Virus record (IMG/VR): IMGVR_UViG_3300036864_000384
Span: 1 to 39,447 of that record
DNA: 39,447 nt
Direction: 5' to 3' (one strand)
DNA from: a virus
Under the pieces are notes generated by a model. That model ran no database searches. It had not been told where the DNA came from and was given only the letters and a program-made list of their open reading frames with translations. Below, in pieces: positions 15,889 through 37,724 of the stretch. Position numbers and translations under genes: made by a program. Position 1 is the first letter of the stretch. Every line of letters starts with the position of its first letter.

Positions 15889-16093
15889 CACGGTCTGGGT
15901 GCTCTGGCTACAGGTGGGCCACTGCAATCACCTCGTGGGCGTCTACGACAGCAAGGCGGGCGCACTTGCCAACGTGAGGTCCGAGGACCACTTTATCTGC
16001 ACGACCGCAATGAACGAGACCCTGGCGCTCGATCTGATCCCTTACGTTGAACCGCCGCGGTGCCGGGCCGGGCATGAGGAACTCAACATGTAA
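15863..16093 (+). CDS. Hypothetical protein (76 aa) upstream of portal
   Basis: I choose GTG 15863, placed after the purine-rich gggaaggggacg. The frame is open from 15812. The product is beta-rich at first (RNVTLPGDTVWVLWLQVGHC), then GVYDSKAGALANVRSEDHFI and a C-terminal CRAGHEELNM. No recognised family. Its last sense codon is ATG and its stop TAA (16091-16093) overlaps the portal's GTA start codon as GTAA, so translation of this gene could deliver ribosomes to the portal start. Confidence 0.6.
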   Translation: MRNVTLPGDTVWVLWLQVGHCNHLVGVYDSKAGALANVRSEDHFICTTAMNETLALDLIPYVEPPRCRAGHEELNM

Positions 16094-19000
16094 ACCGCCT
16101 TCCCAAAGGAGTCGTCCGGGCCACACCGGTTGACCCCGAAGCCCTCCTCGTCGATTCGTCCGGCCGACCGCTGCGCGCCTCCGCTCTGAGGCAAGGCGAG
16201 CGCGACTATTCGCCTGGTAAACCACTTCCGGCCACCCTGGCCCACGGCGCCGCCCCCCGCTCCACCATCCCCCCCACCTCGGCCAACCTCAGCGCGAGGC
16301 CCCGATCCTGGGCCGGCAAGGACCTCACCGCCTTTGACCAGCTGAGGGCTCTCGCCGACACCGACCTGGTGCGCATCGCCATCCAGGACGTCAAGGGGCA
16401 GATCGAGGGGATGGGCTGGGACGTCGCCCAGGTCGACGGAGAAGAGGTCACTCCCGAGCTGGCAAAGAAGATCGCCGCGGCCAAGGCCTGGATTCGAAGA
16501 CCCGATCCGCTCGCAGGCCGCAACTTCAGGGCGTGCCTGTCGTCCTGGCTCGAAGAGATCCTGGTCACAGACGCCCTGACCCTGTATCCGCTCACCGACC
16601 GCGCGCGGCGCCCGCTGGGGCTGATTCAGATAGACGGGGCCACCATCTACCCGGTGGTCGATTCTCTGGGCCGGCCCCCGCTTCCGCCCGAGATCGCCTA
16701 CCAGCAGATCGTCCACGGCCAGGTGGAGACCGAGTTCACGCTGCCCGAGCTGTGGTACCGGCCCCGGCACGCCCGGCCCGATTGTCCCTACGGCCGCAGC
16801 CCGACCGAGATGGTCCTGCTCACGGTCAACCTGGCCCTACGGTCTCAGCTCTACGACCTGACCTACTACACCGAAGGCTCCATCCCCGAAGGCATCTACG
16901 CGGTGCCCGGGTATGACAACGCCGAGCTCAACGACCTGCAGGAGAACTGGGATGCCGTCCTGGCAGGAGACGACCAGGCGCGCCGGCGGATGCGCTTTGC
17001 GCCCGAGGGTCAGTACCAGGCCACGAAGGACCGGTCGTGGAGCTACGAGTTCCAGGAGTGGCTCGCGAGGGTCATTGCCTGGGCGTTCGGCGTGTCGCCG
17101 ATGCCGATCGCCAAGGTGATGAACCGGGCCACGGCCGAGCAGATGGAAAGCTCGGCGCTGGAGTCCGGCGTCCGCCCCGTGGCCGAGTGGGTGGCGGAGA
17201 TCTTCACCGATTACCTGCAGGGGCCCCTGGGTCTCACCGATCTGAAGTTCGTGTTCGGCTCCGATGAGACGGAAGACGGCTCCCTGGTGTATCAGCGCAA
17301 CGTCGCCTACGCGGGCCACGCCGGGCTGACCCTCAATGAGTTCTTCGAGCAGACCGGAAGCAAGGCCCTGGAAGGGGAGGCCGGCGAGCTGCGGCTCATC
17401 GACACCCCAACCGGTCCCGTGTTCCTTCAGGACCTGCTCGCCCAGCGCGAGCAGTCTTTGAAGGCCGGTGACGCGAAGGTGGATTCATCCCTGATCCAGC
17501 GGGCGTTCCTCGAGGTGCCGGTCATGACCCGCGACGAGCTGCGCGCGTCAATCGGCCTGCCGCCTGTGGGGGGAGCCGAGGGGGCGGAGTTCATCACCAT
17601 CGCCCAGGTCGGTCCCTCTGTCCCGGCAGCGCCAGTCGCCGGCGACCCCGGAAACGCCTCTCCCGCGGATGCGGCAGGGGAGACCGCTGGCGCCACCGTA
17701 GCAGCCGACGATGAGGTCCCAGAGCCCGATCCTGCCGAGGCGGATCTCAAGCGCTGGCAGGCGTTTACCCTCAAGAGACTGAAGGACGGCCGCCCGGTAC
17801 GAAAGTTCGCATCCCAGGCTATCCCATCCACCCTGCACCGGGCGGTCAACTCGGCCCTCGAGCGCATACCGAAGGACGTCTCCCTCGAGGACGCCTCGCG
17901 CGAGGTGCGGGCGATCTTCGACTGCGCCACCCTGCAGCGGCGGATGGAGAAGAGCCCGCCGGCGTCGCTGGTGAAGCCCACCAGGAAGATCGCCAAGGTG
18001 ATCGCAGCCTGGCTCGCGGACCAGAAGGACCGGGTCATCGCGGCTGCGCTGGAAGAGCTGCCCGACCCGAGCAAGGCCGCCGGGGCACCGCTGAGAAAGA
18101 AGATCTCCGACCTCGAGCTCAACGCCGAGGACCTGGTCGATGACCTCTCGCGCGAGATCGCAAAGGCCCTGACCGCGGGCGCCGGCGAGACGGCCAGCAC
18201 CTCTGGATTCTCCCTGGACACCGTCCCCGAGGCGGCGGTGGCCTACGCCAACGAGCGGGCCGCCGAGCTGGTGGGCATGAAGTGGGTCGATGGCGAGCTC
18301 GTCACCAACCCCAACCCGCGCTTCGCCATCACCGAGAGGCTGAGAGAGGACATCCAGGCGAAGGTGACCAAGGCGATAACAGAGGGCTGGTCGCCCGATG
18401 AGCTGAAGGCCGACCTGGCCAAGATGTTCTCCCCCGCCCGGGCCGAGACCATCGCCCGCACCGAGACCGGACTTGCATATCAGGAAGGCGCGCTCAAAGT
18501 TTACGAAGCAGGGGGGCAGGACTTCGTCGACATCCTCGACGGGGCCGGGTGCCTTCCGACGGGGCATGATGACGACGCGCCAGAGGCGGACTCGAGCGCC
18601 AAGGGTGTCGTGCAGACGGAAAGTCAGGCCGACGGTCAGGTCTGGACCCTGGCCCAGCTGAGGGAGCACCGCCTGGGGCATCCCAACTGCCTGCCTGGCT
18701 CAGTTGAAGTGGTTGCACCGAACCGCACCGCGGCGTTCACGCGGTGGTTTGACGGGGAAGTGGTCGTCCTTCACACAGCCGCGGACGATCTCCTCACCTG
18801 TACCCCGAATCACCCGGTACTGAGCGGGAGGGGGTGGGTAGCGGCGAAGGACCTTCGAGAGGGTGACTATGTAATTCGCAGCCTCGATTCTGAGCGGGTA
18901 GCGCGCCTCGTCGATCCAGACTATGACGAGGCTCCAGCCCGAATCGAGAAGGTAGCGGGTTCGTTCCTGGAATCGCTCCCTGTGGCGACCCACGCCGTGC

Positions 19001-19533
19001 CAGCCTCCACCGAAGACTTCCACGGCGATGGAGCCGGAAGCGAGATCTACGTTGTAGGGTCCAACCGCCTTGCACGGGGTGAAGGGGGTCCTGCCCCGAT
19101 GCAGCATCTTTCCCAGCCGGATTTCGATCTCGGATCGATGGGCTCGGGTGCGTTCCTTTCCCAAGGCGCGCCGCGCAAGATCCTCAGCCGTTCGCTTTAT
19201 CCCTCGCAGGGCATCGTGCGCAGCGGCAGCACGCCGCGCGCGCTCCCGCGGCCCGATGCGAGCCTGATGGAGACGGAGGCTGTCCGCCTGTGTTCGCATC
19301 TTGAGCCCAGCAGTTCGAAAGGCACTGCGGACGGCGCCGCCCGAGACTCCGAGGTCGCGGCCGATGGCATCACTGGACTCTCCGGCCTGATAGCGCCGGT
19401 GAAGGTCACGAAGATCCGAAGGGAGAAGTTTTCCGGTCATGTCTACAACCTCGAGACCGAACAGGGGTGGTACGTGGCCGGAGGCATCGTAACACACAAC
19501 TGCGTGCGCGGGACGATCCCGCACGAGGAGTAA
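16090..19533 (+). CDS. Portal protein fused to a MuF-like head-morphogenesis domain, interrupted by an intein; GTA start
   Basis: 1147 residues before splicing, about 876 after. The portal domain occupies roughly residues 85-480 (SWLEEILVTDALTLYPLTDR; YGRSPTEMVLLTVNLALRSQ; IAWAFGVSPMPIAKVMNR). The C-terminal MuF-type domain has AETIARTETGLAYQEGALKV and, across the intein, the HPNC/VRG motif. A portal-MuF fusion is known in phages; the portal forms the DNA channel and the MuF part helps head assembly. Start: GTA 16090. An in-frame TGA at 16075-16077 leaves only GGA-ACT-CAA-CAT before it, and the next usual start is 93 codons later, inside the folded region. GAGG at 16077-16080 is the ribosome-binding site. 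The overlapping ATG-TAA at 16088 is out of frame. Confidence 0.92.
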   Translation, partial: VNRLPKGVVRATPVDPEALLVDSSGRPLRASALRQGERDYSPGKPLPATLAHGAAPRSTIPPTSANLSARPRSWAGKDLTAFDQLRALADTDLVRIAIQDVKGQIEGMGWDVAQVDGEEVTPELAKKIAAAKAWIRRPDPLAGRNFRACLSSWLEEILVTDALTLYPLTDRARRPLGLIQIDGATIYPVVDSLGRPPLPPEIAYQQIVHGQVETEFTLPELWYRPRHARPDCPYGRSPTEMVLLTVNLALRSQLYDLTYYTEGSIPEGIYAVPGYDNAELNDLQENWDAVLAGDDQARRRMRFAPEGQYQATKDRSWSYEFQEWLARVIAWAFGVSPMPIAKVMNRATAEQMESSALESGVRPVAEWVAEIFTDYLQGPLGLTDLKFVFGSDETEDGSLVYQRNVAYAGHAGLTLNEFFEQTGSKALEGEAGELRLIDTPTGPVFLQDLLAQREQSLKAGDAKVDSSLIQRAFLEVPVMTRDELRASIGLPPVGGAEGAEFITIAQVGPSVPAAPVAGDPGNASPADAAGETAGATVAADDEVPEPDPAEADLKRWQAFTLKRLKDGRPVRKFASQAIPSTLHRAVNSALERIPKDVSLEDASREVRAIFDCATLQRRMEKSPPASLVKPTRKIAKVIAAWLADQKDRVIAAALEELPDPSKAAGAPLRKKISDLELNAEDLVDDLSREIAKALTAGAGETASTSGFSLDTVPEAAVAYANERAAELVGMKWVDGELVTNPNPRFAITERLREDIQAKVTKAITEGWSPDELKADLAKMFSPARAETIARTETGLAYQEGALKVYEAGGQDFVDILDGAGCLPTGHDDDAPEADSSAKGVVQTESQADGQVWTLAQLREHRLGHPNCLPGSVEVVAPNRTAAFTRWFDGEVVVLHTAADDLLTCTPNHPVLSGRGWVAAKDLREGDYVIRSLDSERVARLVDPDYDEAPARIEKVAGSFLESLPVATHAVPASTEDFHGDGAGSEIYVVGSNRLARGEGGPAPMQHLSQPDFDLGSMGSGAFLSQGAPRKILSRSLYPSQGIVRSGSTPRALPRPDASLMETEAVRLCSHLEPSSSKGTADGAARDSEVAADGITGLSGLIAPVKVTKIRREKFSGHVYNLETEQGWYVAGGIVTHNCVRGTIPHEE
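18688..19500 (+). mobile_element. Intein (271 aa) inserted at the HPN/C site of the MuF domain
   Basis: The intein begins with Cys (CLPGSVEVVAPN) and has a block-B Thr-x-x-His in LLTCTPNHPVLSGRGWVAA. It ends with block F YNLETEQGWYVAGGIVTHN and its terminal Asn, followed by extein Cys+1 (TGC 19501). These are the N-terminal nucleophile, block-B His, and terminal His-Asn plus Cys+1 needed for splicing. The middle section contains the usual conserved AGSEIYVV and SNRL segments of Hint-domain inserts in phage head proteins, with no LAGLIDADG or HNH motif in this reading frame. The endonuclease is instead encoded on the other strand. Splicing would rejoin HPN to CVRGTIPHEE, the normal MuF C terminus. 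Confidence 0.92.
18700..19440 (-). CDS. Antisense homing-endonuclease-like gene (Vsr/EDxHD-type fold) inside the intein
   Basis: A 246-residue minus-strand ORF lies wholly within the intein. The start is ATG at 19440, eight bases after GAGG on that strand (the open frame extends to 19524 but lacks a better start). The N-terminal 55 residues contain a helix-turn-helix (SSDAIGRDLGVSGGAVRSAF). A Lys/Arg-rich linker follows, then a nuclease-like core: RLGKMLHRGRTPFTPC, YNVDLASGSIAVEVFGGGWH, RHRERFQERTRYLLDSGWSL, VIVWIDE. The order V-D ... V-E-V-F-G-G-x-W-H ... R-x-x-x-L-x-x-x-G-W is that of Vsr-like homing endonucleases as I remember them. Such conserved-looking protein motifs antisense to an equally well-formed intein would be unlikely by chance. 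It probably cuts intein-free portal genes to drive homing. Confidence 0.82.
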   Translation of the reverse strand: MTGKLLPSDLRDLHRRYQAGESSDAIGRDLGVSGGAVRSAFRTAGLKMRTQADSLRLHQARIGPRERARRAAAAHDALRGIKRTAEDLARRALGKERTRAHRSEIEIRLGKMLHRGRTPFTPCKAVGPYNVDLASGSIAVEVFGGGWHGVGRHRERFQERTRYLLDSGWSLVIVWIDEARYPLRIEAANYIVTLSKVLRRYPPPPAQYRVIRGTGEEIVRGCVKDDHFPVKPPRERRGAVRCNHFN

Positions 19534-19540
19534 GACCCAT

Positions 19541-19609
19541 GTAGCTGTTCACTCAAAGGTAAACACAGGCGCGCTGGCGCGGCCGGGAGGCATCCATGGC
19601 CGCCCGTGA
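19541..19609 (+). CDS. GTA-start leader peptide (22 aa) overlapping the next gene's start
   Basis: GTA 19541 follows GAGGAG (19525-19530) by ten bases and opens a 22-codon ORF (AVHSKVNTGALARPGGIHG...) that ends at TGA 19607-19609, 14 bases past the ATG (19596) of the next gene. The ribosome-binding site of that gene (GGGAGG) lies inside the leader and encodes its PGG residues. The likely role is translational coupling: a ribosome started at GTA opens or delivers initiation to the ATG gene, placing it under the same control. The peptide itself may have no function. A second leader of the same design occurs before the tail tube gene. Confidence 0.6.
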   Translation, partial: VAVHSKVNTGALARPGGIHGRP

Positions 19610-20042
19610 CATCGACCTTCTGACCAGCGCAGCCCAGACCGCCACCGCCCAGGGCGGCGAAAAGACGATCCCGACCCTCACGATGGCCGCCGTCACCGTC
19701 GACGTCACGGCCAAGAGCGGCACGGGCACCCCGACGCTTTCTGTCTGGCTCCAGGGCAAGGTCATGTTCAACGGCGTGGAAATCTGGGTGGACATTCCCT
19801 ACGACGTACTACTCGTCCACGAGATGTCCCCGACTACCGCCGACCAGGCCGCCATCACGCCCTCGGAAGACGTCGTCACCACAGCGAGGGGCCGGAATAT
19901 CGTCAACGTCTACACCGGCACACCGCCGGCGAGGTTCACCGCCATCTACAAGCACCTGTCCTACTTGGCCGTCCGGCTGGCATGGGCGATCTCCGGGACA
20001 ACGCCGTCTTTCACTTTCGCCGCCGCGTTGAGCGGCAAATAG
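19596..20042 (+). CDS. Probable head protein (148 aa), candidate decoration or stabilising protein
   Basis: It starts at ATG 19596 after GGGAGG. The sequence is predicted mostly beta: LTMAAVTVDVTAKSGTGTPT, LSVWLQGKVMFNGVEIWVDI, FTAIYKHLSYLAVRLAWAIS, ending FTFAAALSGK. It has no cysteines. It lies between portal and protease/capsid genes, where phages often encode a small beta-rich virion component. Identity as a decoration protein is inference from fold type and position. It is preceded by the GTA leader peptide that overlaps its start. Confidence 0.6.
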   Translation: MAARDIDLLTSAAQTATAQGGEKTIPTLTMAAVTVDVTAKSGTGTPTLSVWLQGKVMFNGVEIWVDIPYDVLLVHEMSPTTADQAAITPSEDVVTTARGRNIVNVYTGTPPARFTAIYKHLSYLAVRLAWAISGTTPSFTFAAALSGK

Positions 20043-20051: not shown

Positions 20052-21353
20052 GTAAAAGACCTCAAGATATTCGTCCCCCTCACGAAGATTGACGCCAAGC
20101 AGCAGATGGTCTACGGCGTGCTCGCCGAAGAGGCCGTCGACAAATCCGGCGAGATCTTCGACTACGAAACCAGCAAGCCCCTGTTCCAGGCGTGGTCATC
20201 CGACTTCGAGAAGCGCACGACCGAGGCGGGCCAGGAAGTCAGCAAGGGGAATCTCCGGGCGATGCACGAAGGCATCGCGGCCGGCAAGTTCACGCAGATG
20301 GTGTTCGACGACGCGGCGAAGAAGATCATCGTCGCCGCCCACGTCGTGGACAAAGCCGAGTGGGAGAAATGCGAGAAGGGCGTCTACACCGGCTTCTCGA
20401 TCGGCGGCAAGTACGAGAAGCAGTGGATGGACGAGCAGCTCAAGAAGGTCCGCTACACGGCGCGCCCGGCCGAAGGTTCGATCGTGGACAACGCCTGCAT
20501 GTATGGGGCGACGTTCAGCGCGATCAAGGCCGACGGGGCGGAGGAGCTTCGCAAGTTCGTCGGCGCCCCGGCCCAGAAGGACGCGGCCGCTCTCGCATCC
20601 ACGGCTGACTCGGTCCTCGAGGGGCTCAAGAACCTCCTGGTGCAGGCTTCGATGATGGAGGGGGATCCGTCCGCCTGGACGATCCACGACATCGCGGAAG
20701 CCATGTCGCGCGTGCTGTCGGTGAAGGGGGAGGCCCGCTACAAGATCGTGGTGGAGATGGACGACGTCGCCATGGGCGCGCCCGCGGGGGACCTCAAGAA
20801 GGTCGACGAGGCCAAGCCGACCGATCCCACAGCTCCAGCAGCTGATCCAGTTCCCGATCCGGCCAAACCGGCGGGGGAGAAGCCCTCGGGAGAGGCACCG
20901 GCAGCCGACCCAGTCGCTGTCGATCCGGCGAAGGCGGCAAGCGCCGACACCCTGTCCAAGCTCATCAACGAATCGTTCCAGAAGTCCCTCGAGTCTCTGA
21001 CTCAGACCCTCACCAAGCATCTCGACGACCAGGTCAAGGCGGTGAAAGACGGCATCCCGGAGACGGTCAGCACAACCGTGGGCGATGCCGTGAAGACCGC
21101 GATGACGCCGATCGAGAAGTCGATGGAGGAGGTCAAGAAGGATCTCGAGCTCGTGAAGGCAACGCCGGCGGCCGTAGGTCGTCCGGTGCACACAGCAGGA
21201 AAGACCATCGGCAGCGGGCCGGGTGGAGGCGGCGGATCCGCCCCCATGGAGGTGGTGCAGAAGTTCCTCGACGAGGCGCAACGCTCCGGCAAGGTCGATT
21301 CCCAGGCAATGAAGCAGCTGCGGCTCCAAGCGGCCACGGCGGCCATGCCCTAA
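20052..21353 (+). CDS. XkdF-like prohead protease with C-terminal scaffold-like region; GTA start
   Basis: 433 residues. The N-terminal 170 residues resemble XkdF-type serine proteases of phage heads: FVPLTKIDAKQQMVYGVLAE, candidate catalytic His in NLRAMHEG, and candidate Ser in GVYTGFSIGGKYE. After residue 250 comes a Pro/Ala/Asp-rich linker, then a coiled coil (TLSKLINESFQKSLESLTQT onward) of the kind found in scaffolds. Protease-scaffold fusions mature the capsid. Start: GTA 20052, six bases after AGGAG. The in-frame stop TAG (20040-20042) is three codons upstream and no conventional start lies between. The first usual start (ATG 20106) would delete the first beta strand. The overlapping ATG-TAA at 20050 is out of frame. 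Confidence 0.88.
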   Translation, partial: VKDLKIFVPLTKIDAKQQMVYGVLAEEAVDKSGEIFDYETSKPLFQAWSSDFEKRTTEAGQEVSKGNLRAMHEGIAAGKFTQMVFDDAAKKIIVAAHVVDKAEWEKCEKGVYTGFSIGGKYEKQWMDEQLKKVRYTARPAEGSIVDNACMYGATFSAIKADGAEELRKFVGAPAQKDAAALASTADSVLEGLKNLLVQASMMEGDPSAWTIHDIAEAMSRVLSVKGEARYKIVVEMDDVAMGAPAGDLKKVDEAKPTDPTAPAADPVPDPAKPAGEKPSGEAPAADPVAVDPAKAASADTLSKLINESFQKSLESLTQTLTKHLDDQVKAVKDGIPETVSTTVGDAVKTAMTPIEKSMEEVKKDLELVKATPAAVGRPVHTAGKTIGSGPGGGGGSAPMEVVQKFLDEAQRSGKVDSQAMKQLRLQAATAAMP

Positions 21354-21380: not shown

Positions 21381-22832
21381 GTAAACGGACTGCTTCAATC
21401 CATCAGCGAGGAATCTCTCGCAAAGGCGGCCGAGCTCTTCAAGGGCGCCTTCGACGTCAAGAAGACGGCCATCGATCTTTCCACCGGCCTGACCGGTGTG
21501 AACCTCGAAGCGCCGGCCAAGCTGCTCTACCCGCTCCTGTCTCCCTACCGACAGACCGTCGGCAGGAAGGTCATGGGCGGAAAGAACTCCGAGCACAAGC
21601 GAATCCTCACCGTGAAACCCTCCGGATCCCTGTTCGCCGCGGAAGGCGTGCGGGCAACCGGCTGGGCGATCACGAAGGATGCGCCCACGGTTTCGTTCAA
21701 GTCCATGGGCCAGCTCGGTGACTACACCTGGGAATCCGAGATCGCCGGCCGCAACTACGAAGACATCAAGCAGCGCACCAGGACGCTGAACCTTCTGTCG
21801 GCGATGCAGCTGGAGGAAGGCGCGATCTTCGGCGGAAACGTCACGGCCCTGGGCACTCCCACCGGACTGACCACGACTCCAGCCACCACGGGCGCCGCGG
21901 CGGTCGGGGGCGTGGGAATCGCGGCGGCGACCTACCAGGTCCGCGTGGCGGCACTCAGCCACGAGGGCATGAGGCAGGCCTCCAGAGTTGCCCGCGTGGA
22001 CAAGGCGGCGGCGCAGAACTTCGACGCTTCCCTCGTTGTTCCCACGCAGGGCGGCACCCTCGGCATCACCGCGGCTCAGGCCAACGTGGCGGCGGTGGTT
22101 GGCGGTTCGACCGATGGGATCATCGGTCTGACGTGGAACCCGATCGCCGGTGCGTTCGGCTTCGCGGTCTACGTGGACAACCACCTGCAGTGCATTTTGC
22201 CATCCACGACCAAGTGCACACTCACCGGCATCAACACCACCGGGGAGGCGGTACCGGGGGCGGACAGCTCCGCCAACGCGAACGCCTTCAACGGGATGGT
22301 CGCTCAGATCGTGGCGGCCGCAACCGGGTCCATGAAGAAGCGGGTCAACACGAATCTGGGCACGCCCTCGGGCAACCAGATCACCGTGATCGCCGATGCC
22401 ATCCAGGACGGCTACGACCAGTTCAAGGTCCAGCCGGATCGGTTGCTGGTGGCGTGGGACGTCCACGACCAGCTCGATCGCAAGCTGGCCTCGGTGGCCA
22501 ACGACCGGATCAACCTGAACTACATGGTCGGGCCGGAAGGTCCGAAGTTCGAGCAGCTCAGGTTCTACCCCTCGCCGATCGACGGACGACAGATCCCAAT
22601 CGAGCAGCAGCCCAACCTCTACGGAGGCCAGGTCCTGGGCGTGCTCGACGGTGTGCCGATCCCCGACAGCGAGATCCCGGCAGCATGGCAGATGCACATG
22701 GGCAGCGACTGGGTGCTGCTCGACTATGCGGTCGTCAACCCGAAGCAGGAGTTCGAGAGCAGGTCCTTCGGCGCTCTGGCGGGGTATGCCCCGGCGCTTC
22801 AGTTCATCCTGTACGACGTCCAGCGGGCGTAA
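21381..22832 (+). CDS. Major capsid protein (HK97-fold type) with an inserted Ig/FN3-like domain; GTA start
   Basis: 483 residues. An N-terminal arm precedes LLYPLLSPYRQTVGRKVMGG, then a core with FKSMGQLGDYTWESEIAGRN and EDIKQRTRTLNLLSAMQLEE. C-terminal capsid blocks include NQITVIADAIQDGYDQFKVQ and DWVLLDYAVVNPKQEFESRS. Residues about 150-280 form a Gly/Ala/Thr/Val-rich insertion with AAATYQVRVAALSHEG and WNPIAGAFGFAVYVD, as in fibronectin- or Ig-like surface domains. Start: GTA 21381, six bases after AGGAG. The frame is closed by TAA at 21351-21353 with no usual start between, and the next one (GTG 21498) would remove 39 residues. The most abundant virion protein thus appears to depend on GTA initiation. 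Confidence 0.88.
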   Translation, partial: VNGLLQSISEESLAKAAELFKGAFDVKKTAIDLSTGLTGVNLEAPAKLLYPLLSPYRQTVGRKVMGGKNSEHKRILTVKPSGSLFAAEGVRATGWAITKDAPTVSFKSMGQLGDYTWESEIAGRNYEDIKQRTRTLNLLSAMQLEEGAIFGGNVTALGTPTGLTTTPATTGAAAVGGVGIAAATYQVRVAALSHEGMRQASRVARVDKAAAQNFDASLVVPTQGGTLGITAAQANVAAVVGGSTDGIIGLTWNPIAGAFGFAVYVDNHLQCILPSTTKCTLTGINTTGEAVPGADSSANANAFNGMVAQIVAAATGSMKKRVNTNLGTPSGNQITVIADAIQDGYDQFKVQPDRLLVAWDVHDQLDRKLASVANDRINLNYMVGPEGPKFEQLRFYPSPIDGRQIPIEQQPNLYGGQVLGVLDGVPIPDSEIPAAWQMHMGSDWVLLDYAVVNPKQEFESRSFGALAGYAPALQFILYDVQRA

Positions 22833-23509: not shown

Positions 23510-24151
23510 GTAAACACGATCATCGACATCGGCCAGCTGAAGGCATCGGGCTTCCGCGGGTTTGACGGCCTGGCGGACGACGTTCTGCAGCGCAGCATCG
23601 AGGCGGCCACGGCCGAGATTGAAAAGAAGATCGGGCCGCGCAAGGTCGTGGAGGCCACCTACACCGAGTGGTACGACGGGCTGAGGGCCGCGGGCCGGAG
23701 CAAGGACGAGCTCTATCTCGAGAAGTACCCGGTGTCGGAAGTCACGCTGGTTCAGGAAGACGGCGTGACCCTGACCACGGGGACCGGTTACGACAGCGCG
23801 GGCACCATCCAGGTCCTAGTCGAGGCCGCGCGCGGGGTTCTGAGGCGCCGGCCCGGGGGGGCGGATATGTCACTCGCTGGGATGTCGGCCTGGCGCCGGT
23901 GGTCCGGCCGGTACCAGAACATCAAGGTCGTCTACAAGGCGGGATGGGCGTCCGGGTCGGTGCCGGCGGACCTCACCCAGGTCTGCATCGAGCTGGCCCT
24001 GATGCTCTACAAGCAGTCGAGCCGGTCGGGCTCCGGGAGCATGTCGATGTCCGGGGCGTCCGTGGAAGCGATCGAGGAGCTGTCCGAACGGGGGCAGCGG
24101 GTGATCCGAAGGTACGAGCCCAAGCTGCGGCCGCGGATGCGAGCTGCCTAA
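23510..24151 (+). CDS. Head-tail connector/adaptor-like protein; GTA start
   Basis: The 213-residue product opens NTIIDIGQLKASGFRGFDGL followed by LQRSIEAATAEIEKKIG, the helical opening of head-completion (gp6/gp15-like) adaptors. It continues with TEWYDG and NIKVVYKAGWASGSVPADLT, a family-typical 'Y-x-A-G-x(n)-P-x-D-L' segment, and helices to the end. It should sit beneath the portal. Start: GTA 23510, six bases after AAGGG. An in-frame TGA (23489-23491) is six codons upstream with no conventional start between, and the next start (GTG 23648) would lose 46 residues including the first helices. The overlapping ATG-TAA at 23508 is out of frame. Confidence 0.82.
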   Translation, partial: VNTIIDIGQLKASGFRGFDGLADDVLQRSIEAATAEIEKKIGPRKVVEATYTEWYDGLRAAGRSKDELYLEKYPVSEVTLVQEDGVTLTTGTGYDSAGTIQVLVEAARGVLRRRPGGADMSLAGMSAWRRWSGRYQNIKVVYKAGWASGSVPADLTQVCIELALMLYKQSSRSGSGSMSMSGASVEAIEELSERGQRVIRRYEPKLRPRMRAA

Positions 24152-24175: not shown

Positions 24176-24787
24176 GTAGGAAGGAACGGCGGGATCACCT
24201 TCGACGGCGACAACATGGATCGCTTCCTGGGAGATCTCTGGAGCAAGCTGCCCGGCACGATCTCCCGCGGCCTGCGCTCCGGCGTCAACCTGATGGTGCG
24301 GGAAGTCGTCACGACCAAGCTCACGGACGACAACCCGCCCTACCTCAACCGCCGCACCGGCAACTTCATCCGATCCGTTGGTGCCTCTCCATCCTTCAAG
24401 GTGGAGGGCAGCCTGGCGGGCGCCAGCGCCATCTTCAGCGGTCAGTTCGGCAGCAACCTCGATTACGCCAGAAAGCACGAGGAAGGCGGGACGTTCACCG
24501 AGCAGGTCCGGGCGCACACCCGCGTGAAGAACAGGAGTCGTGCCGCCGAGGTGCGCGCGAAGACTCGGCGCAAGAAGTTCCTGACCGCCTCGCAGCTCAA
24601 GGCGATCTCGCCCTACATCCACGTGCGCGCGCACACGCGCACCGTCACCTACCGCGCGCGCCACATGTTCGGCGACACGATGAAACAGAACCACTTCGGC
24701 GCCGCCCGCCGGATGCGCAGGGCGCTAGATCTGCTTCACAAGAACCGCCGGATCCCGACCCTGTCTGAAATCGCGGGAGGTGGATGA
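24176..24787 (+). CDS. HK97 gp10-like head-tail joining protein; GTA start
   Basis: The 203-residue product is basic. It has FLGDLWSKLPGTISRGLRSG near the N terminus, then PYLNRRTGNFIRSVGASPSF, LDYARKHEEGGTF and a C-terminal RRMRRALDLLHKNRRIPTLS. The 'R-T-G-x-L/F-x-x-S ... Y-A-x-x-x-E-x-G' pattern is that of gp10-like neck/tail-completion proteins. Start: GTA 24176, six bases after GAGGAG. The in-frame TAA (24149-24151) is eight codons upstream without any usual start. ATG 24215 is the first alternative and has no ribosome-binding site. Its stop overlaps the next gene. Confidence 0.82.
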   Translation, partial: VGRNGGITFDGDNMDRFLGDLWSKLPGTISRGLRSGVNLMVREVVTTKLTDDNPPYLNRRTGNFIRSVGASPSFKVEGSLAGASAIFSGQFGSNLDYARKHEEGGTFTEQVRAHTRVKNRSRAAEVRAKTRRKKFLTASQLKAISPYIHVRAHTRTVTYRARHMFGDTMKQNHFGAARRMRRALDLLHKNRRIPTLSEIAGGG

Positions 24788-25282: not shown

Positions 25283-25561
25283 GTAAACAGCAATCGTCTG
25301 CGGTTCGGCGGGCCCGAGCTTCCCGAGGGCACCCGCACCTACTACCAGGATCCTGAAGGCGGGATGCACTTCGCCCGCCCGGGCGACGAGGTCGACCCCG
25401 ACAAGGTCCACACCCCCCCAGCTTCCTACTTCATCGAGACGGGCCGTGCCTCCATGGTGACGGCTTCCGATCTCGACTCCAGCAGCAGCACAGAACCATT
25501 CAACCCAGAGCCGTCGGACAGCTCGTCTGAACCCGAGGCCGAACAGGAGGAACACGTGTAG
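25283..25561 (+). CDS. Hypothetical tail-region protein (92 aa); GTA start
   Basis: The sequence opens NSNRLRFGGPELPEGTRTYY, continues GMHFARPGDEVDPDKVHTPP, and ends in an acidic Ser/Glu-rich tail (SDSSSEPEAEQEEHV). The folded part resembles small proteins encoded just before tail tube genes. GTA 25283 lies seven bases after GGAGG in aaggagggagtctt. A TTG at 25259 is in frame but has no ribosome-binding site and lies inside the previous gene. The overlapping out-of-frame codons are TTG-TAA. Its stop TAG overlaps the next GTA leader as GTAG. Confidence 0.72.
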   Translation, partial: VNSNRLRFGGPELPEGTRTYYQDPEGGMHFARPGDEVDPDKVHTPPASYFIETGRASMVTASDLDSSSSTEPFNPEPSDSSSEPEAEQEEHV

Positions 25562-28795: not shown

Positions 28796-31087
28796 GTAGA
28801 GTTCACCGCCTCCACGCGCCGGCGCTACATCGAGCGCCACCACTACCAGGACATCGTCGAGCCCGTCGGGCTGATGGAATACCGGGCGCTGCTTCTGGGC
28901 CCGGGCGGCATCGAGTTCGATGTCACCGATCGTCTTGGCGAAAAGGGCCTCGGGAAGATCAAGGGCGCCACGGAAGAAAACTTCCTCGAGCTGACCCACG
29001 GGGAAGTCTCCCTCGAGCTGGCAGACGAAGACGGGGCGGTCTCCCAGTTCTTCTCGGGGGTTTCCTCCTCGGACCTCTACGAGGTCATCCTCGAGCGCTT
29101 CACGGGGGCGCGCCGGAACCGCTGGGAGCGGATCTTTGGCGGCATCCTCGATCTGCCCTGGTCCATCCGCATCGACCACCGCGCGCGCTCAATCAATCTG
29201 CAGGCGTTCTCCTATTCCAAGCTCCTCGAACGGGCCTCGGCCGACACCATCAAGAGAAGCCTGGACGGCCTGACGGGTTCGGTGACCGCCACTTCCAAGG
29301 TCGTCACCATCTCCGACACCGCAAACATCTTCGCCGGCGACAGGATCCGCCTGCGCGACAACACCAACGACGAAGAGCAGACCGTCGCCAAGGTGCTCAC
29401 TGGTACGACCGTCCAGACCATCGACGCCTGGGACAACACCTTTGCCGCGCTGACCCCCCTGACGGTTGAGACCCCCTACTACCGCGACAAGGGCCTCCAG
29501 TTTCTCGCAGATGCCCTGTTTGCGGCCGCGGGAATCGCGAGCCGGGCGATCTCCATCCTCAATCCCCTGGCGCTGTTTCCGGTCGCCACCCCGATGAACA
29601 CCACGACCTACCCCAGAGACGTGGACACCGGGATCGTCGTGGATCCGCGCAGCTTCACCCAGCGTGGCGCCAACATCGACGTGCGGATGACCGACGACGG
29701 GCCCACCGACCGGCGCGCGGAGACCCCGGGCCCGGCCGAGGCGTGGACGTCTTTCACCACGGGCGCCCTTCGCACCATCAACGACTGGACGCCCTACCTC
29801 GACGCCGAGCCCGCGAACTTCCCGGACAACGGTTCCTTCCTGCTCGACGACGGGCTGCAGCACGCCTCGGACCACACCGCCAACCTCCTGTACGACCTGC
29901 GGGAGGGCGGGACCAAGTTCGACCTCTACAGCCTCGTGGTGGGCGGGGGAGGCATCGGGGGCTCGACGCTCCTGATCGAGGCTTTCAGCACGGTCACGGC
30001 CAATCAGTGCCATGCAGGGATCGACGTCGACCCGGTCACCGGCGACGTCTGGATGAGCTGCACCGGAAAGACCGGCGACGCCGGCGACAAGGACTCCGTG
30101 AAGGTCTGGGACGGGGCGGTGCTCACGTCGATCGAGACCGCGTTTTCCGGCCAGGTGCGCTACCTGCGCCGCCTGAAGCTGGTCGCCGTCCACGAGTACG
30201 ACCCGGGCGCATCCCATGGCAACAACCCGAAAGAGACCATGCGGCTCTACGACGCCGCCACCCGGACCCTGGTCAAGACGATCGCCGTCCCTCAGAACTT
30301 CTGGGCGTGGAGCCTGCGGGTCTGGGCGGTAGAAGAGGGGATCCGGATCGCGGGACTCTACACCCTGCTCGGAACCACGCGCCTGCGGATCTGGGATGCG
30401 AGCTGGGTCCAGGTCGCCGATTACCAGGTCGCAGACAAGGCTTCGGGAATCGCCGGCACCAAGGCGTTTCTTTCCGTGTTCACCGACTCGGGCGGCAAGG
30501 AGTTCCTGGTCGGGTGCGCCGGCGAGCAGTTCTTCGTGGTGGCCAAGGGCTACGCCGGGGTGATCCCGTATGCGGACTTTGCCGGGATGTCGTGTGCGGA
30601 GGGTCTCCGGGAGCTCGCCATCGCGAGCATTTCCTACATCGAGGTGGACCACTTCAAGGCCGGCACGATCCGCGGGAGGGCCAGCCGGGATGAGGAAGCC
30701 CGCTCCCAGGCAATCGCGATCGACGAGCCCCTCGAGCGGGTGAGTTGGCCGATCTCGGAGTTCTACAGGACCTCCGCCACCATCACCGGGAGCGATTCAG
30801 CCGGCGGCAAGATCGAAGAGACCGCGGGCGATTTGGGGGATTCGGCTCACAGGCTGGAGCTTGGCGGCGAGCTCATCCAGACGGGGGGCCTTGCGGAAGC
30901 CATCGCCCAGGAGTACGTGTCGGTGCTCTCCGTGCCGCGTCGGCAGGAAGAGCTTACCTTTGCCGAGACCGGCCGGCTCGTCGACGCCGGAGACTACCTG
31001 GATTTCGACGGCGCACTCTGGAAGGTCCTGGACGCAGACCTTGACACCCGGGCCCGGCGCATCACGGCGCGGGTCCTGGAGGACTGA
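28796..31087 (+). CDS. Tail tip/baseplate hub-like protein with propeller-like middle; GTA start
   Basis: 763 residues. The N-terminal region (RRYIERHHYQDIVEPVGLME; FLELTHGEVSLELADEDGAV; WERIFGGILDLPWSIRIDHR) and the C-terminal region (RRQEELTFAETGRLVDAGDY; VLDADLDTRARRITARVLED) resemble tail hub proteins. Between them, about residues 390-600, motifs recur at intervals (DSVKVWDGAVLTSI, MRLYDAATRTLVKTI, RLRIWDASWVQVADY) like blades of a beta propeller, which may bind a host surface. Start: GTA 28796, seven bases after GAGG. In-frame TGA 28784-28786 is three codons upstream (GGT-GAC-CAT), so no usual start exists before ATG 28874. The overlapping ATG-TAG at 28794 is out of frame. Confidence 0.8.
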   Translation, partial: VEFTASTRRRYIERHHYQDIVEPVGLMEYRALLLGPGGIEFDVTDRLGEKGLGKIKGATEENFLELTHGEVSLELADEDGAVSQFFSGVSSSDLYEVILERFTGARRNRWERIFGGILDLPWSIRIDHRARSINLQAFSYSKLLERASADTIKRSLDGLTGSVTATSKVVTISDTANIFAGDRIRLRDNTNDEEQTVAKVLTGTTVQTIDAWDNTFAALTPLTVETPYYRDKGLQFLADALFAAAGIASRAISILNPLALFPVATPMNTTTYPRDVDTGIVVDPRSFTQRGANIDVRMTDDGPTDRRAETPGPAEAWTSFTTGALRTINDWTPYLDAEPANFPDNGSFLLDDGLQHASDHTANLLYDLREGGTKFDLYSLVVGGGGIGGSTLLIEAFSTVTANQCHAGIDVDPVTGDVWMSCTGKTGDAGDKDSVKVWDGAVLTSIETAFSGQVRYLRRLKLVAVHEYDPGASHGNNPKETMRLYDAATRTLVKTIAVPQNFWAWSLRVWAVEEGIRIAGLYTLLGTTRLRIWDASWVQVADYQVADKASGIAGTKAFLSVFTDSGGKEFLVGCAGEQFFVVAKGYAGVIPYADFAGMSCAEGLRELAIASISYIEVDHFKAGTIRGRASRDEEARSQAIAIDEPLERVSWPISEFYRTSATITGSDSAGGKIEETAGDLGDSAHRLELGGELIQTGGLAEAIAQEYVSVLSVPRRQEELTFAETGRLVDAGDYLDFDGALWKVLDADLDTRARRITARVLED

Positions 31088-31093: not shown

Positions 31094-31558
31094 GTAGGCT
31101 ACCGCTGGCACCCGCTGGTCCGCATGACGCCGCAAGACGGCCCGGCCGAGGTCGTGGACCTCACCACGGTCTTTGTCTCTGGCGGCAGGACCTACAAGGT
31201 CCTCACCGACATCGACCTGGTCTACGAGCCCGAGACCGAGGCGCGCGACACCATCAACCGCCGGTCCCGGCCCCTGCTGCTGGGGTATCGCCCGGTGATC
31301 ACCATGGTCTTCCAGCTCAACATCATGAGCTTCTACGCCCAGATCGCACAGCTCGCCTCCCGGCTGATGGATCCGTACTGGGTCGTCGAGCTCGCGCTGG
31401 ACAACGGCGCCACCTACCGCCAGATTGTGCTCAGGCGCGCGCCGTCGCCTGAACCCTTCGGAAACAAGACCGTCGCCGGCGCCAGCTTCAAGATGACCGT
31501 GGCCTGCCGGGACCTCATCGCCGAGCTTTCGCCCATCGCCACGGGCACGGCCTGGTAG
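31094..31558 (+). CDS. Tail protein (154 aa); GTA start with the clearest isolation
   Basis: The product opens GYRWHPLVRMTPQDGPAEVV and contains VFVSGGRTYKVLTDIDLVYE, VITMVFQLNIMSFYAQIAQL and ASFKMTVACRDLIAELSP. It is probably a small tail tip component. The previous gene's TGA (31085-31087) is in the same frame, and only GGC and TCT separate it from GTA 31094. No ATG, GTG or TTG lies near in any frame; the overlapping NTG is CTG. GGAGG (31078-31082) is 11 bases upstream, with a closer GAGG at 31086-31089. ATG 31124 lacks a ribosome-binding site. GTA is therefore almost forced as the start. Confidence 0.82.
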   Translation, partial: VGYRWHPLVRMTPQDGPAEVVDLTTVFVSGGRTYKVLTDIDLVYEPETEARDTINRRSRPLLLGYRPVITMVFQLNIMSFYAQIAQLASRLMDPYWVVELALDNGATYRQIVLRRAPSPEPFGNKTVAGASFKMTVACRDLIAELSPIATGTAW

Positions 31559-31568: not shown

Positions 31569-34500
31569 GTAGACCGAACCGCCCTGCGCACCGCCCGACG
31601 CTTCGAATGGTTCTTCCGCTTGCTCGCCACGGCCGGCCTGGTGCTGGCCTTCTCCATCCTCACGCTGCACGCGGCCGTCAAGACCACGACCATCCAGGGC
31701 AGGGTCGTCGCCGTGACCGGCTCGCCACTTTCCGGCTACATCACGGCTGCGCTTTCGACCTCCGGATCAGCGATGGACGGCACGACCTCGGTGCGTGTCG
31801 TCGGGTACTACCGCGGCACCATCGACCCCAACGGCATGGTCACCGGGCTTGCCCTCGTGCCCAACGACGCCATCACCCCAGGCGGGACCTACTACGTCGT
31901 GAGCATCGTCTGGAAAGACGCGGCCGGCAGGGGCGGCAACGCGAACGAGCTATGGTCGGTCGCGAGCGACCCGAACGTGATCGACATCGGGCTCATCGCC
32001 CGGCTCAAGGTGGCCCCGGGCCTGGACGTGCCGAAGATGAGAAACAGCACCGGCACCTGCCCGCCGCCTGGCTCGTTCTGCGACGACGCCTCAGACGTCG
32101 GGGTCCAGTGGCTCTGCACCGACCTGGCCGCGGCCTACTACTGTCAGAGCGCAGGCGTGGTGGCTCAGGTCTCGGGATCCGGATCGGGCTACAACCGCGC
32201 CCAGGAGGAAGGCTCGAACCTGACGCCCAGAACGACCGTCAACTTCGTCGGCGTTCCCCTCACCGTGACCGACAATCCATCCGCGCAACGGACCGATGTC
32301 ACGCTCAGTGTGACGCCGTCGAGTTCCCCGAGCTGCGTCGGCAGCAATAGGATCATCACCACGAACCAGGGCATGACAGGAGGAGGGACCCTCGCCAGCG
32401 ACCTCACCCTGGGGTTCCGCCTCCACACCAGCGAGACAGGGGGAACGCCGGCGATCGCCTCGGAGAGCGGGCTCCAGATGATGGGTTCACTGATAGGCGG
32501 CGGTGTCGGTATCACGCTCCTGGCCGGATGCAGCGATGGCCAGATCCTCAAGTGGGACATCGGTGAGGCGACGTGGAACTGCGCAGACGATGGCGGGGTC
32601 GGCGGTGGAGGAGGAAACAGCTTCACCACCATCAACGCGCCCAGTGGGACGGACCCGGTGGCAAGCGGCGCGACAGACACCTTGGGCCTATCAGCGGTCG
32701 CACCCGTCACCATCACCGGGGACGCCCTCTCCGACACCCTCACATTTCAGGTGACGCAGGCCAGCGCATCGGCTCCCGGCGTCGTGCAGCTCTCCTCCGA
32801 TCTCGCGGGGGCCGGATCCGGTCCAACGTCCCCGCAGGTCGCAGACGACAGTCACAACCACACCACGACGACGGTCTCCGCCCTGGACGCCTCCAACGAC
32901 TTCACCGCGGGCCTCATGCCACTACTCTACGGCGGAACCGGCTCCAACCTCTCAGGAACCGGCGGAACCGGGCAGTTCCTGAAACAGAGCTCCGCCGGCG
33001 CCGGCGTGACCGTTTCGGTGATCGGGGTCGGGGATCTTCCAGCCCATGCGCACACGGCCTCCGACATCACCAGCGGCTCTATGGATATCGCGCGCGGGGG
33101 GACGACGGAGACGGTCAGCACGGAGGACGCTGTCCTTGTCGGTTCCGGATCGGCCGACTGGCAGCCGAAGGTGATCCCCGACTGCGACATCGCGTCGGGC
33201 AACAACAACCCGGCGGTCAACTACGACCAGGTGACGAACACCTTCACCTGCAGGCAGATCAACCTCGACCCCGACCACACCGTCATCGACCCGGCGATCC
33301 ACACCGATGTCGAAGCGACCGGGAGCCTCGCCACGGGTGACCTGTTCTGGCGCAAGTCCAGCGGCAAGTGGAGCAACCTTGCGCGCGGGACCAACGGACA
33401 GTGCCTCACCTCAACGGCGACCGATCTTGCGTGGGGGAGCTGCGCGGGCGGTGGAGGCGGATACGCCACGATCCAGGAGGAGGGGAGCCCCGTCACCGTC
33501 CGAACGGTATTCAACTTGATCGGCGCTGCTCTCACGGCGGCAGACAACGCCGGCGCATCAAGAACGGATGTCACCCTTTCGCAGAGCCCGGCCTCCGCGT
33601 CTGTCGTGGGGACGGGTCGCCTCGTTTCTGTTTCAGGAACTGGCCTCTCCGGCGGCGGGGACCTCTCGGCCGACCTGACTATCACCCTCTCCGCGAACGT
33701 CATGCTGGACAACGAGGCGTCGACGGTGGCCTCGGCCGGGACGCAGGTCATCAACGACCCCGTGAACATTCTGCCTGACGCGACCAACGGCGTGACGGTG
33801 GACGCCGCCGGTCTGCTCACGAAGGCCGGCACCGGCAGTGTCCAGGCCGACGCAGTCGTATGCTCCGGCTCCTGCATCTCAGACGCCGAGGTAGACGACG
33901 GGATCACGATCAGCAATATGACGCAGATCGGGACCCGCCCATTCACCTCCCTGACGGCGAGCTGCACCGATGCGCAGGTCGTAGGGGGCAACGCCGGCGC
34001 GACGGCCCTCGAATGCCAGGCTGATGACGACGTCCCAGACGCCGGCGACTTCGGAGCGCTGGCCCTTTCCGGGGACGTTGCCAGCACGGGGCTCAGCACG
34101 ACGATCGGCGCGGACAAGATCCTCGAATCCATGCTGAAAGTGGTCGATTCTCCGGCCGACGAGGAGTGCCTGACCTACGAGGCTACGGGTGGCGACTTCC
34201 AATGGGAGACGTGTGGAGCTGGCGGCTCCGGCGACATCACCGACGTCTTCAACTGCGCGTCCGGGGATTGCGCGTCCGTTGCACTCGCCGACGGGGATCT
34301 GCTCGACGGGTCCGGTGTCAACAACAGCGCGACGACCGAGGGGATCAAGCTCCCCCAAGCGGCCGATGTCTCGACGGGAACCGCGGAGGGGCAGATCGGG
34401 TGGGACACAGACGACGACACGCCATTCATCGGAGATGGATCGGGAGTCAAGCCGATCACTGGTCGCGACTGGAGTTACTTCCGACAGGTCGGCACGTCGC

Positions 34501-35027
34501 CTGTAGAGAGGCTGTGGTCACCCAACGTTTCCGGGGCCGCGTCGCTCAGCCAGTCGACGTTCACCACCGGCGTCTACCGCGCCACCCCATTCCTGACGGG
34601 AAGAGGGGGAACCATCGATCGAGTGGGGGTCAGAGTTACGACCGGGGCGGCCTCGACGAACTTTCGGATCTGCCTCTACGATTCGACGTCGGACACGAAC
34701 CTCTACCCCAACAATCTGATCCTGGACGTGGGCTCGCTTTCGTCCGTCTCCACCGGATGGATCAATGCGACAGTCAGCCAGGCGCTCAAGCCCGGCAAGC
34801 TCTACTGGTTCGCGTTTGAAAACGACTCCGCCTCCCCGCAGTTTCGATCCATTTCAGGCGTCGGGTCGGTGCCGATCCTTGGGTACGACAATCCGCCGAC
34901 GACCGACGCGGGGACAGGATGGACGGTGGCGCACACGTTCGGGGCGTGCCCCTCGACATTCCCAGCCAGCGGCACTGTGATTTCTGGCGCCGTGTCGCCG
35001 GTCGTCAACGTGAGGTACTCGAATTGA
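31569..35027 (+). CDS. Tail fibre protein with N-terminal hydrophobic segment; GTA start
   Basis: 1152 residues. A basic N terminus (DRTALRTARRFEWFF) is followed by a membrane-like helix (LLATAGLVLAFSILTLHAAV), unusual for a fibre. A beta domain follows, then long Gly/Ser/Thr/Asp-rich repeats: a unit with QEEGSNLTPRTTVNFVG...TGGGTLASDLTL recurs later as QEEGSPVTVRTVFNLIG...SGGGDLSADLTI. The C-terminal 160 residues are a probable receptor-binding domain (VSQALKPGKLYWFAFENDSA; GWTVAHTFGACPSTFPASG). Start: GTA 31569, seven bases after AGGAG. The overlapping ATG-TAG at 31567 is out of frame. The first usual in-frame start, TTG 31620, would cut into the hydrophobic helix. Confidence 0.84.
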   Translation, partial: VDRTALRTARRFEWFFRLLATAGLVLAFSILTLHAAVKTTTIQGRVVAVTGSPLSGYITAALSTSGSAMDGTTSVRVVGYYRGTIDPNGMVTGLALVPNDAITPGGTYYVVSIVWKDAAGRGGNANELWSVASDPNVIDIGLIARLKVAPGLDVPKMRNSTGTCPPPGSFCDDASDVGVQWLCTDLAAAYYCQSAGVVAQVSGSGSGYNRAQEEGSNLTPRTTVNFVGVPLTVTDNPSAQRTDVTLSVTPSSSPSCVGSNRIITTNQGMTGGGTLASDLTLGFRLHTSETGGTPAIASESGLQMMGSLIGGGVGITLLAGCSDGQILKWDIGEATWNCADDGGVGGGGGNSFTTINAPSGTDPVASGATDTLGLSAVAPVTITGDALSDTLTFQVTQASASAPGVVQLSSDLAGAGSGPTSPQVADDSHNHTTTTVSALDASNDFTAGLMPLLYGGTGSNLSGTGGTGQFLKQSSAGAGVTVSVIGVGDLPAHAHTASDITSGSMDIARGGTTETVSTEDAVLVGSGSADWQPKVIPDCDIASGNNNPAVNYDQVTNTFTCRQINLDPDHTVIDPAIHTDVEATGSLATGDLFWRKSSGKWSNLARGTNGQCLTSTATDLAWGSCAGGGGGYATIQEEGSPVTVRTVFNLIGAALTAADNAGASRTDVTLSQSPASASVVGTGRLVSVSGTGLSGGGDLSADLTITLSANVMLDNEASTVASAGTQVINDPVNILPDATNGVTVDAAGLLTKAGTGSVQADAVVCSGSCISDAEVDDGITISNMTQIGTRPFTSLTASCTDAQVVGGNAGATALECQADDDVPDAGDFGALALSGDVASTGLSTTIGADKILESMLKVVDSPADEECLTYEATGGDFQWETCGAGGSGDITDVFNCASGDCASVALADGDLLDGSGVNNSATTEGIKLPQAADVSTGTAEGQIGWDTDDDTPFIGDGSGVKPITGRDWSYFRQVGTSPVERLWSPNVSGAASLSQSTFTTGVYRATPFLTGRGGTIDRVGVRVTTGAASTNFRICLYDSTSDTNLYPNNLILDVGSLSSVSTGWINATVSQALKPGKLYWFAFENDSASPQFRSISGVGSVPILGYDNPPTTDAGTGWTVAHTFGACPSTFPASGTVISGAVSPVVNVRYSN

Positions 35028-36658: not shown

Positions 36659-37032
36659 TGGCCTTCAAGAACGTCCGCGCCCTGGACGACTGGCATGAGG
36701 CCGGCGCGATGATGCGAGAGGTCGTGCTCTTCATGTGGGAGGAGGCGTGGCCGACAGACCGAGACCTGATCGTCACCAGGATCGCCGAGCGCACGCCGGA
36801 GCAGAAGACCGAGGTCCACACGGACGGCCCGCCGCACCGGGCGATCGACTTTCGGATCTGGCACGCGCCGCTCCAGACGGTTCAGAGGGTGGCGGACAAG
36901 GTGAACGCGAAGTTCATCTACGACCCGCAGCGGCCGGCGATGATGGTGGCCATCGTCCATGACGCCGGCTCTGGTAACCACCTTCATATCCAGACACATA
37001 CGAACACGGTCCTGCGGGAGGCGGTCGCGTAA
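36658..37032 (+). CDS. M15/hedgehog-type peptidase-like endolysin candidate (124 aa)
   Basis: It starts at ATG 36658 overlapping the previous TAA, behind GGAGGAG. The second half carries VHTDGPPHRAIDFRIW and IVHDAGSGNHLHIQTH. 'H-x-x-G-x-x-x-R-A-x-D-x-R' followed about 50 residues later by 'H-L-H-I-Q' is the zinc-ligand and catalytic pattern of small M15-like phage peptidases (His, Asp, final His). It is likely a cell-wall peptidase for lysis, although the 124-residue size leaves no wall-binding domain. Its stop TAA overlaps the GTA start of the next gene (GTAA). Confidence 0.68.
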   Translation: MAFKNVRALDDWHEAGAMMREVVLFMWEEAWPTDRDLIVTRIAERTPEQKTEVHTDGPPHRAIDFRIWHAPLQTVQRVADKVNAKFIYDPQRPAMMVAIVHDAGSGNHLHIQTHTNTVLREAVA

Positions 37033-37307
37033 TCGAGTCCGTCCTGCGAGCCCTGGCCGGGCAGGTCCCGCTGCTCCTCGTGGTGGGTGTGGGACTGGGC
37101 TGGGGTCTGCGCGAGCTGCGGGGAATGCATCGCGAGATCAAGGCTCTCTCCAGCATCGCGGGGGAGGCCAGAGACGCCGCGCGCGAGCTAAAGATCCGCA
37201 TCGAGGAGAAGGTTGCCACGGCCGAGCGCGAGCACGATGATTTCAGAGACAGGATTCACGCTCTGGAGACGCGCGGCCGCGTCCGGCGGAGCCGTCAGGG
37301 AAGCTGA
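37029..37307 (+). CDS. Membrane-anchored coiled-coil protein of the lysis cassette (92 aa); GTA start
   Basis: GTA 37029 overlaps the previous gene's TAA (GTAA), seven bases after GGAGG. The product opens IESVLRALAGQVPLLLVVGV and GLGWGLRELRG, one membrane helix, then a charged helix (LSSIAGEARDAARELKIRIE; KVATAEREHDDFRDRIHALE) and a basic end. One membrane anchor plus a coiled coil before a holin candidate suggests a lysis accessory or spanin-like role. It is the only GTA start in the set preceded by C and not T. The next in-frame usual start (GTG 37080) would remove half the membrane helix. Confidence 0.7.
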   Translation, partial: VIESVLRALAGQVPLLLVVGVGLGWGLRELRGMHREIKALSSIAGEARDAARELKIRIEEKVATAEREHDDFRDRIHALETRGRVRRSRQGS

Positions 37308-37319
37308 GAGGAGAAACGT

Positions 37320-37724
37320 GTAGACAATCTGCAACAGGTAGTGTCGGCCATCATAGGCGATGTCCTTCAGGCGCCCGTCTTCATCGTACTTTCCAGGTTC
37401 GCCGGCGTGGCCGCGCTGACCTGGTTGCTCACCGAGACCCTGCCCGAGGTCTTCAAGAAGCTCAACCGATTCACCAAGCCGGCGCTGGGGGCAATCCTGG
37501 GGCCGCTGCTGTCGGTCATCTTCTACGCCCTGGGCTTCGTGAGGATCGACTTCGTCCTGGCCGGCGTGCTGGGCGATGCCCCTCAGTATGTTCAGGCGCC
37601 CGTGCGCGTCGTAGGCGTCGCCCTGATGGGCTTCATCGCCACCCTGTGCGCCCGGGGGTTCCACGACTGGAAGGTAGGCTCGAGGACCTCGCCGCCCGCT
37701 GCGCCAGGGGGAGGGTCCTCGTGA
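37320..37724 (+). CDS. Holin-like membrane protein (134 aa); GTA start
   Basis: The product opens DNLQQVVSAIIGDVLQAPVF. It has three hydrophobic segments, roughly residues 17-34 (PVFIVLSRFAGVAALTWL), 50-70 (LGAILGPLLSVIFYALGF) and 92-110 (VRVVGVALMGFIATLCARG), with a short polar tail. Size, topology and neighbours (endolysin candidate upstream, membrane coiled-coil proteins on both sides) fit a holin. Start: GTA 37320, six bases after AGGAG. In-frame TGA 37305-37307 is four codons upstream with no usual start between; GTG 37341 has no ribosome-binding site. The overlapping frame reads GTG-TAG. If this is the holin, lysis timing also depends on the GTA-reading tRNA. Confidence 0.75.
   Translation, partial: VDNLQQVVSAIIGDVLQAPVFIVLSRFAGVAALTWLLTETLPEVFKKLNRFTKPALGAILGPLLSVIFYALGFVRIDFVLAGVLGDAPQYVQAPVRVVGVALMGFIATLCARGFHDWKVGSRTSPPAAPGGGSS

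Follow-up and report, generated by a model that had tools for sequence, protein, structure and literature searches.

The stretch of DNA analysed here, called the window throughout, is the whole of the 39,447-nt virus record IMGVR_UViG_3300036864_000384 from IMG/VR (positions 1 to 39,447). In a gene map based on codon usage, ATG or GTG opens the early genes and a number of small late ones, as well as the gene for the terminase large subunit (ATG at 12808), mostly behind a strong SD sequence. Matches to a terminase large subunit were found in two ORFs of the window, 5011-6654 (PHROG 2666) and 12808-14508 (PHROG 2), and only the latter is meant by that name in this analysis. ATG is retained in the late genes at 19596, 22910, 24787, 25608, 26193 and 36658. 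The genes for the portal, protease, capsid, adaptor, tape measure, hub, fibre and holin candidate have a GTA at normal spacing from the SD and no SD-preceded NTG near the start of the coding region. GUA is a codon at which bacteria do not normally start translation.

The original prediction had proposed 14 GTA triplets between 16090 and 37320 as starts of late genes, and all 14 were found at those positions, on the plus strand. The first opens a portal-MuF fusion (16090-19533) in which the next NTG lies 93 codons in; the homologous portal gene has GTA at residue 1 in one related IMG/VR record (L256) and AGT in another (G003). At about residues 990-1140 the fusion carries an intein/Hint-like insertion (..GHPNC LPGS.. 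VTHN C VRG) with a weak match to Pfam Intein_splicing, and this insertion is absent from the portals of Sonali, Mufasa8 and Strzyga. GTA also stands at the start of the head maturation protease (20052-21353), the major capsid protein candidate (21381-22832), the head-tail adaptor (23510-24151), whose PHROG 442 match begins at residue 3, an unnamed late gene (24176-24787), a small late gene (25283-25561, TTGTAA context), the tape measure protein (26881-28791) and the tail hub candidate (28796-31087), where the coding score reaches the GTA. The same holds for a late gene at 31094-31558 (CTGTAG context), a large tail/fibre gene (31569-35027), a spanin-like gene (37029-37307) and the holin candidate (37320-37724, GTGTAG context).

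As starts of late genes, the proposed triplets held up for the 12 ORFs of at least 92 codons, but not for those at 19541 and 25558. These two open ORFs of 22 and 21 amino acids (19541-19609 and 25558-25623) that run into the SD and ATG of the genes at 19596-20042 and 25608-26162, respectively. Each ends just inside a gene that has a separate SD and ATG, for which reason we read them as probable leader ORFs and not as gene starts. The arrangement suggests that the mini-ORFs could couple translation of the two ATG genes to GTA initiation. The L256 homologue of the 19596 gene starts at GTA itself. Among the longer ORFs the GTA at 37029 is the weakest case and doubtful, as it has no U at -1 and overlaps the previous stop.

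The spacing between the SD and the GTAs is that of the canonical starts of the same genome. In the nine cases that had been singled out, an in-frame stop was found 2-10 codons upstream with no ATG, GTG, TTG or CTG in between, and moving to the next ATG, GTG or TTG would indeed remove up to 93 residues, the maximum being at 16090. We then counted all 64 codons in frame, 5-9 nt after a strong SD and near the 5' ends of ORFs. GTA was the most enriched codon of the window, ahead of ATG (8 observed, 0.40 expected, p = 1.2e-8), and for the late region alone the enrichment reached p = 4e-10. One of the eight counted, at 36655, has an ATG directly after it and is probably not a start. In several control phages the same count put ATG or GTG first. 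Inside the genes of the window GTA is scarce, with 23 in about 11,500 codons.

If the GTAs were coincidental, the true starts would be NTG codons downstream, and each of the GTA ORFs with 92 or more codons does contain such a codon further in. However, these NTGs mostly lack an SD and their use would delete conserved N termini; the GTA enrichment (p = 1e-8) and the preservation of GTA in L256 also argue against them. We regard this explanation as the least probable of those weighed.

For the protease, the SD-preceded ATG or GTG starts of many relatives fall at residue -1 to +2 of the window protein. The residues directly after the GTA (LKIFVPLTKID..) are conserved, and the next usual start, at residue 18, would remove them. 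The capsid starts share one alignment column, occupied by GTA in the window and in L256, AGT in G003 and ATG in the Arthrobacter phages Sonali and Mufasa8. The homologues with ATG or GTG starts come from phages that are not known to carry a UAC-type initiator tRNA. As their starts align to the GTA, the latter occupies the position inherited as the start, and only the codon is different.

Independent support comes from two diverged relatives in IMG/VR, L256 and G003. L256 is an 8.4-kb IMG/VR fragment, the expected tRNA region lying outside it and its tRNA not being seen; the portal and capsid are 50% and 45% identical to those of the window. GTA was found at the 5' end of all five recognisable late genes of the fragment, namely the portal, two paralogues of the 19596 gene, the protease and the capsid. 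These five orthologous GTA starts are kept at 38-50% protein identity, and the starts have thus persisted through substantial divergence of the proteins. GTA was also the top SD-spaced codon (4 observed, 0.13 expected, p = 1.2e-5), a U stands at -1 in four of the five starts, and the four TGTAR pentamers on the plus strand of the fragment all sit at these GTA starts. With the N termini of protease and capsid in agreement and GTA kept in L256, the proposed interpretation as GUA starts is supported, and at the level of sequence we take the GTA starts of the window to be confirmed as real.

The original prediction had raised the objection that GUA is poorly read by tRNAfMet(CAU), and it contained no mention of a tRNA that supplies an answer. 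At 12376-12450 on the plus strand, the window encodes an initiator-class tRNA with an encoded CCA end and the anticodon UAC, the complement of GUA, as identified with ARAGORN, Rfam, sequence features and an HMM. ARAGORN labels it tRNA-Val(tac) and the Rfam tRNA model gives 54 bits. As in initiators, there is no strong pair at 1:72 (C1:U72) and the D-stem has A11:U24 of the R11:Y24 type (GAGC/GCTC); both features are found in the window and G003 tRNAs. The three G:C pairs at 29-31:39-41 are present in the window tRNA (UCGGG/CCCGA), and G003 has two of them plus U31:G39. AGGUC occurs in the variable region of the window tRNA. Its anticodon loop reads G32 U33 U34 A35 C36 A37 G38 and differs from the common CUCAUAA loop at positions 32, 34, 36 and 38. 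Just upstream of the tRNA region lies an IS110-type transposase gene (10904-11680; PHROG 4285, Pfam Transposase_20).

An initiator HMM with masked anticodon scored the window tRNA at 54 bits and the G003 tRNA at 45, compared to 56-74 for held-out CAU initiators and at most 29 for clear elongators; the scores above 29 in the elongator set all belonged to tRNA-Met(CAU) or to initiator-like tRNAs fetched by pattern. Since the anticodon is UAC in the window tRNA and ACU in that of G003 instead of CAU, we term both anticodon-switched initiators and not tRNAfMet proper. The UAC tRNA is likely to be the cause of the GTA starts.

G003, the 36.8-kb IMG/VR record of L296, is syntenic with the window, with portal and capsid proteins that are 46% and 39% identical. 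Its tRNA (12115-12187) has the C1:U72, A11:U24 and AGGUC features, but its anticodon is ACU and no CCA is encoded. The most enriched SD-spaced codon in this record is AGT (5 observed, 0.37 expected, p = 4.4e-5). AGT starts were found for the portal (9497), the gene right after the tRNA (12212), the capsid (13864), the adaptor (15696) and at 17965, in each case directly after ..GA, and four of the five have an in-frame TGA directly before the AGT. A sixth site, at 362, lacks the preceding A and is uncertain. Inside the counted G003 genes AGT is almost absent (about 1 in 3,262 codons). The gene for this tRNA is located inside the late cluster, between the end of the portal at 11974 and the next gene start at 12212, and for this reason may not precede late transcription.

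In each of the two phages the anticodon of the tRNA matches the changed codon, UAC with GTA starts and ACU with AGT starts; judged from these genomes, start codon and anticodon change together between phages. The base at -1 follows position 37 of the tRNA, being U with A37 in the window (13 of 14) and A with U37 in G003 (5 of 5), and these two probably change together as well. This co-variation is the strongest argument of the analysis that the tRNAs serve these starts. It also bears on the idea that the window encodes a normal elongator tRNA-Val, with host tRNAfMet making weak use of GUA, as the ARAGORN label and the rare GUA codons inside genes would allow. Such an elongator is at odds with the 1:72 mismatch, A11:U24, the GGG/CCC stem and an initiator HMM score of 54 bits, where clear elongators reached no more than 29, and in G003 an initiator-class tRNA with another anticodon goes with a correspondingly different start codon. 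We consider this idea extremely unlikely.

The sequence around the GTAs is distinctive. A U was found at -1 in 13 of the 14 GTA starts and in none of 16 canonical starts (Fisher p = 1e-7), and all 14 have a purine at +4. As a result of these two preferences, 13 of the 14 sites read NTG-TAR, that is, an out-of-frame start codon followed immediately by a stop. A is over-represented at -2 (p = 2e-4), making the overlapping codon ATG in nine. Almost all SD-preceded TGTAR on the plus strand of the window are gene starts. Over the whole window, the coding strand has few TGTAR pentamers, 19 compared to 47 on the opposite strand.

These overlaps could also mean that ribosomes start at the NUG two bases upstream and then slip by -1 or stop and reinitiate at NUG-UAR, the tRNA being incidental. 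The frequency of NTG-TAR, with ATG in nine sites, would fit this, and PMC9841429 describes both starts of AUGUG-type overlaps as usable in E. coli. However, the overlapping start-stop is missing at 37029 in the window, at the L256 protease (GGTAAAG) and at the AGT starts of G003, the canonical SD spacing fits GTA and not NTG, and the matched ACU/AGU pair is left unexplained. Slippage or stop-reinitiation as the main mechanism was rejected on account of the G003 starts without overlap, and we judge the explanation as a whole very unlikely.

We think it very probable that a phage-borne, anticodon-switched initiator tRNA opens the late genes at GUA as a private start codon. In this reading UAC has replaced CAU as the initiator anticodon, and GTA has replaced ATG or GTG at the starts of the portal, protease, capsid, connector, tail and lysis genes. 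Since the tRNA lacks a strong pair at 1:72 and retains A11:U24 and the GGG/CCC stem, as initiators do, it would be expected to be formylated and to enter the P site via IF2. The UAC anticodon together with A73 would probably lead to charging with valine, and the proteins would then begin with (formyl-)valine. A tRNAfMet(UAC) made in E. coli was charged with Val by ValRS (PMC7595197), which agrees with A35, C36 and A73 as the identity elements for valine (PMC9976931). When initiation with acetyl-Pro was studied in vitro, the GUA/UAC initiator was among the best pairs tested, above AUG/CAU (PMC10158994). The U at -1 could pair with A37 and the purine at +4 with U33, extending the codon-anticodon pairing, as could A(-1) with U37 in G003; pairing of a +4 A with U33 is proposed in PMC9841429. 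At the overlapping NUG-UAR, initiation by host tRNAfMet two bases ahead would run straight into the stop and could yield no product, and the adjacent in-frame stop could likewise deny it a product.

A private GUA start would couple the synthesis of late proteins to the initiator tRNA of the phage itself. The lock would be only partial, because several late genes keep ATG. The private start could serve as a device for locking late genes or for creating dependence, or else for escape from toxins that target tRNAfMet. Escape as the main purpose, with GUA initiation being real and virion synthesis continuing when AUG initiation is blocked because the host or a phage inactivates tRNAfMet (VapC, AtaT-like toxins, host shut-off), is a tentative alternative that we take seriously without favouring it. 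Cleavage of initiator tRNA by VapC is cited in PMC12482277, Val-tRNAfMet(UAC) is refractory to acetylation by AtaT (PMC7595197), and nuclease-evading phage tRNAs with changes in the anticodon loop are proposed in PMC10264068; the window tRNA differs from the common loop at the four positions given above. However, the early and several late genes still need AUG or GUG starts, and no defence or shut-off gene targeting tRNAfMet was tied to the window phage.

Scans of IMG/VR with a tRNA pattern for other non-CAU initiators gave chance matches only. The same pattern with CAT gave at least 120 matches and is therefore sensitive; more variants may nevertheless exist, since it required the GGG/CCC stem and missed G003. 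RF00005 run over 100 records of portal and protease relatives found no further non-CAU initiator, and an IMG/VR capsid search with the window protein alone gave no match. A GTDB scan returned eight tRNAs of initiator-like type whose anticodons were AAU, UAU, GAU, UGA or UAC. Those with AAU, GAU, UAU or UGA come from bacterial MAGs or genomes (L059, L060, L061, L062, L063, L065 and L066). The UAC tRNA is from a Saccharibacteria MAG (L251:8041-8116; same tRNA in L064; G001:C15), and no GGGNTCATANCCC tRNA was found in the genome searched. The six GTDB loci tested (L060 was too short and left out) had no matching start codons, and 74 kb of sequence from the Saccharibacteria MAG gave no sign of GTA starts. 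In the literature covered, which was mostly open-access, no natural non-CAU initiator tRNA was found, nor a report of one paired with changed starts.

In bacteria and their viruses, tRNAfMet(CAU) and AUG-like codons have, to our knowledge, been treated as the fixed means of starting translation. The phages described here probably represent a lineage with interchangeable private initiation codes, in which switched initiator tRNAs (UAC, ACU and perhaps others) would go with virion starts moved to the matching codon and with extended -1:37 pairing, late synthesis being dependent on the phage's own non-methionine initiation. If so, the start signal would be reassignable in nature, through a switched initiator and changed starts of essential genes that vary between relatives. 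Virion proteins would be predicted to begin with valine, and standard gene callers would misplace such starts. For biotechnology the system would further offer an orthogonal pair for initiation that is ready to use, and it would point to a new means of viral control or of escape from tRNA-targeting defence.

Some known systems resemble parts of this one. Ordinary phage initiator tRNAs (CAU), as in Nocardia phage NTR1, Pseudomonas phage PaMx74 and many IMG/VR contigs, are also phage-borne, but no start-codon change is known for their carriers. The GTC start of Streptomyces sigR (PMC5472188) is likewise non-canonical; it concerns a single gene, is read by the normal initiator and repressed through IF3, and has no cognate initiator tRNA. 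Engineered initiators with switched anticodons (PMC10158994, PMC13232202; tRNAfMet-UAC in PMC7595197) include the same GUA/UAC pair, which initiates in vitro, and tRNAfMet-UAC accepts valine; these are laboratory constructs, whereas the window system is natural and has re-coded start codons. In phages that reassign stop codons with suppressor tRNAs (code 15 crAss-like phages; PMC9523058, PMC10607447), as would be the case in the window, a phage tRNA with altered decoding is needed to read a part of the genome that the host reads poorly. In the window, however, the initiator tRNA and the starts are changed and not the stops: a sense codon (GTA, and AGT in G003) is used as the start, the genes are open under table 11, and GUA could keep its meaning in elongation. 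Among natural systems the closest analogue is stop-codon reassignment, and in terms of mechanism it is the engineered orthogonal initiators.
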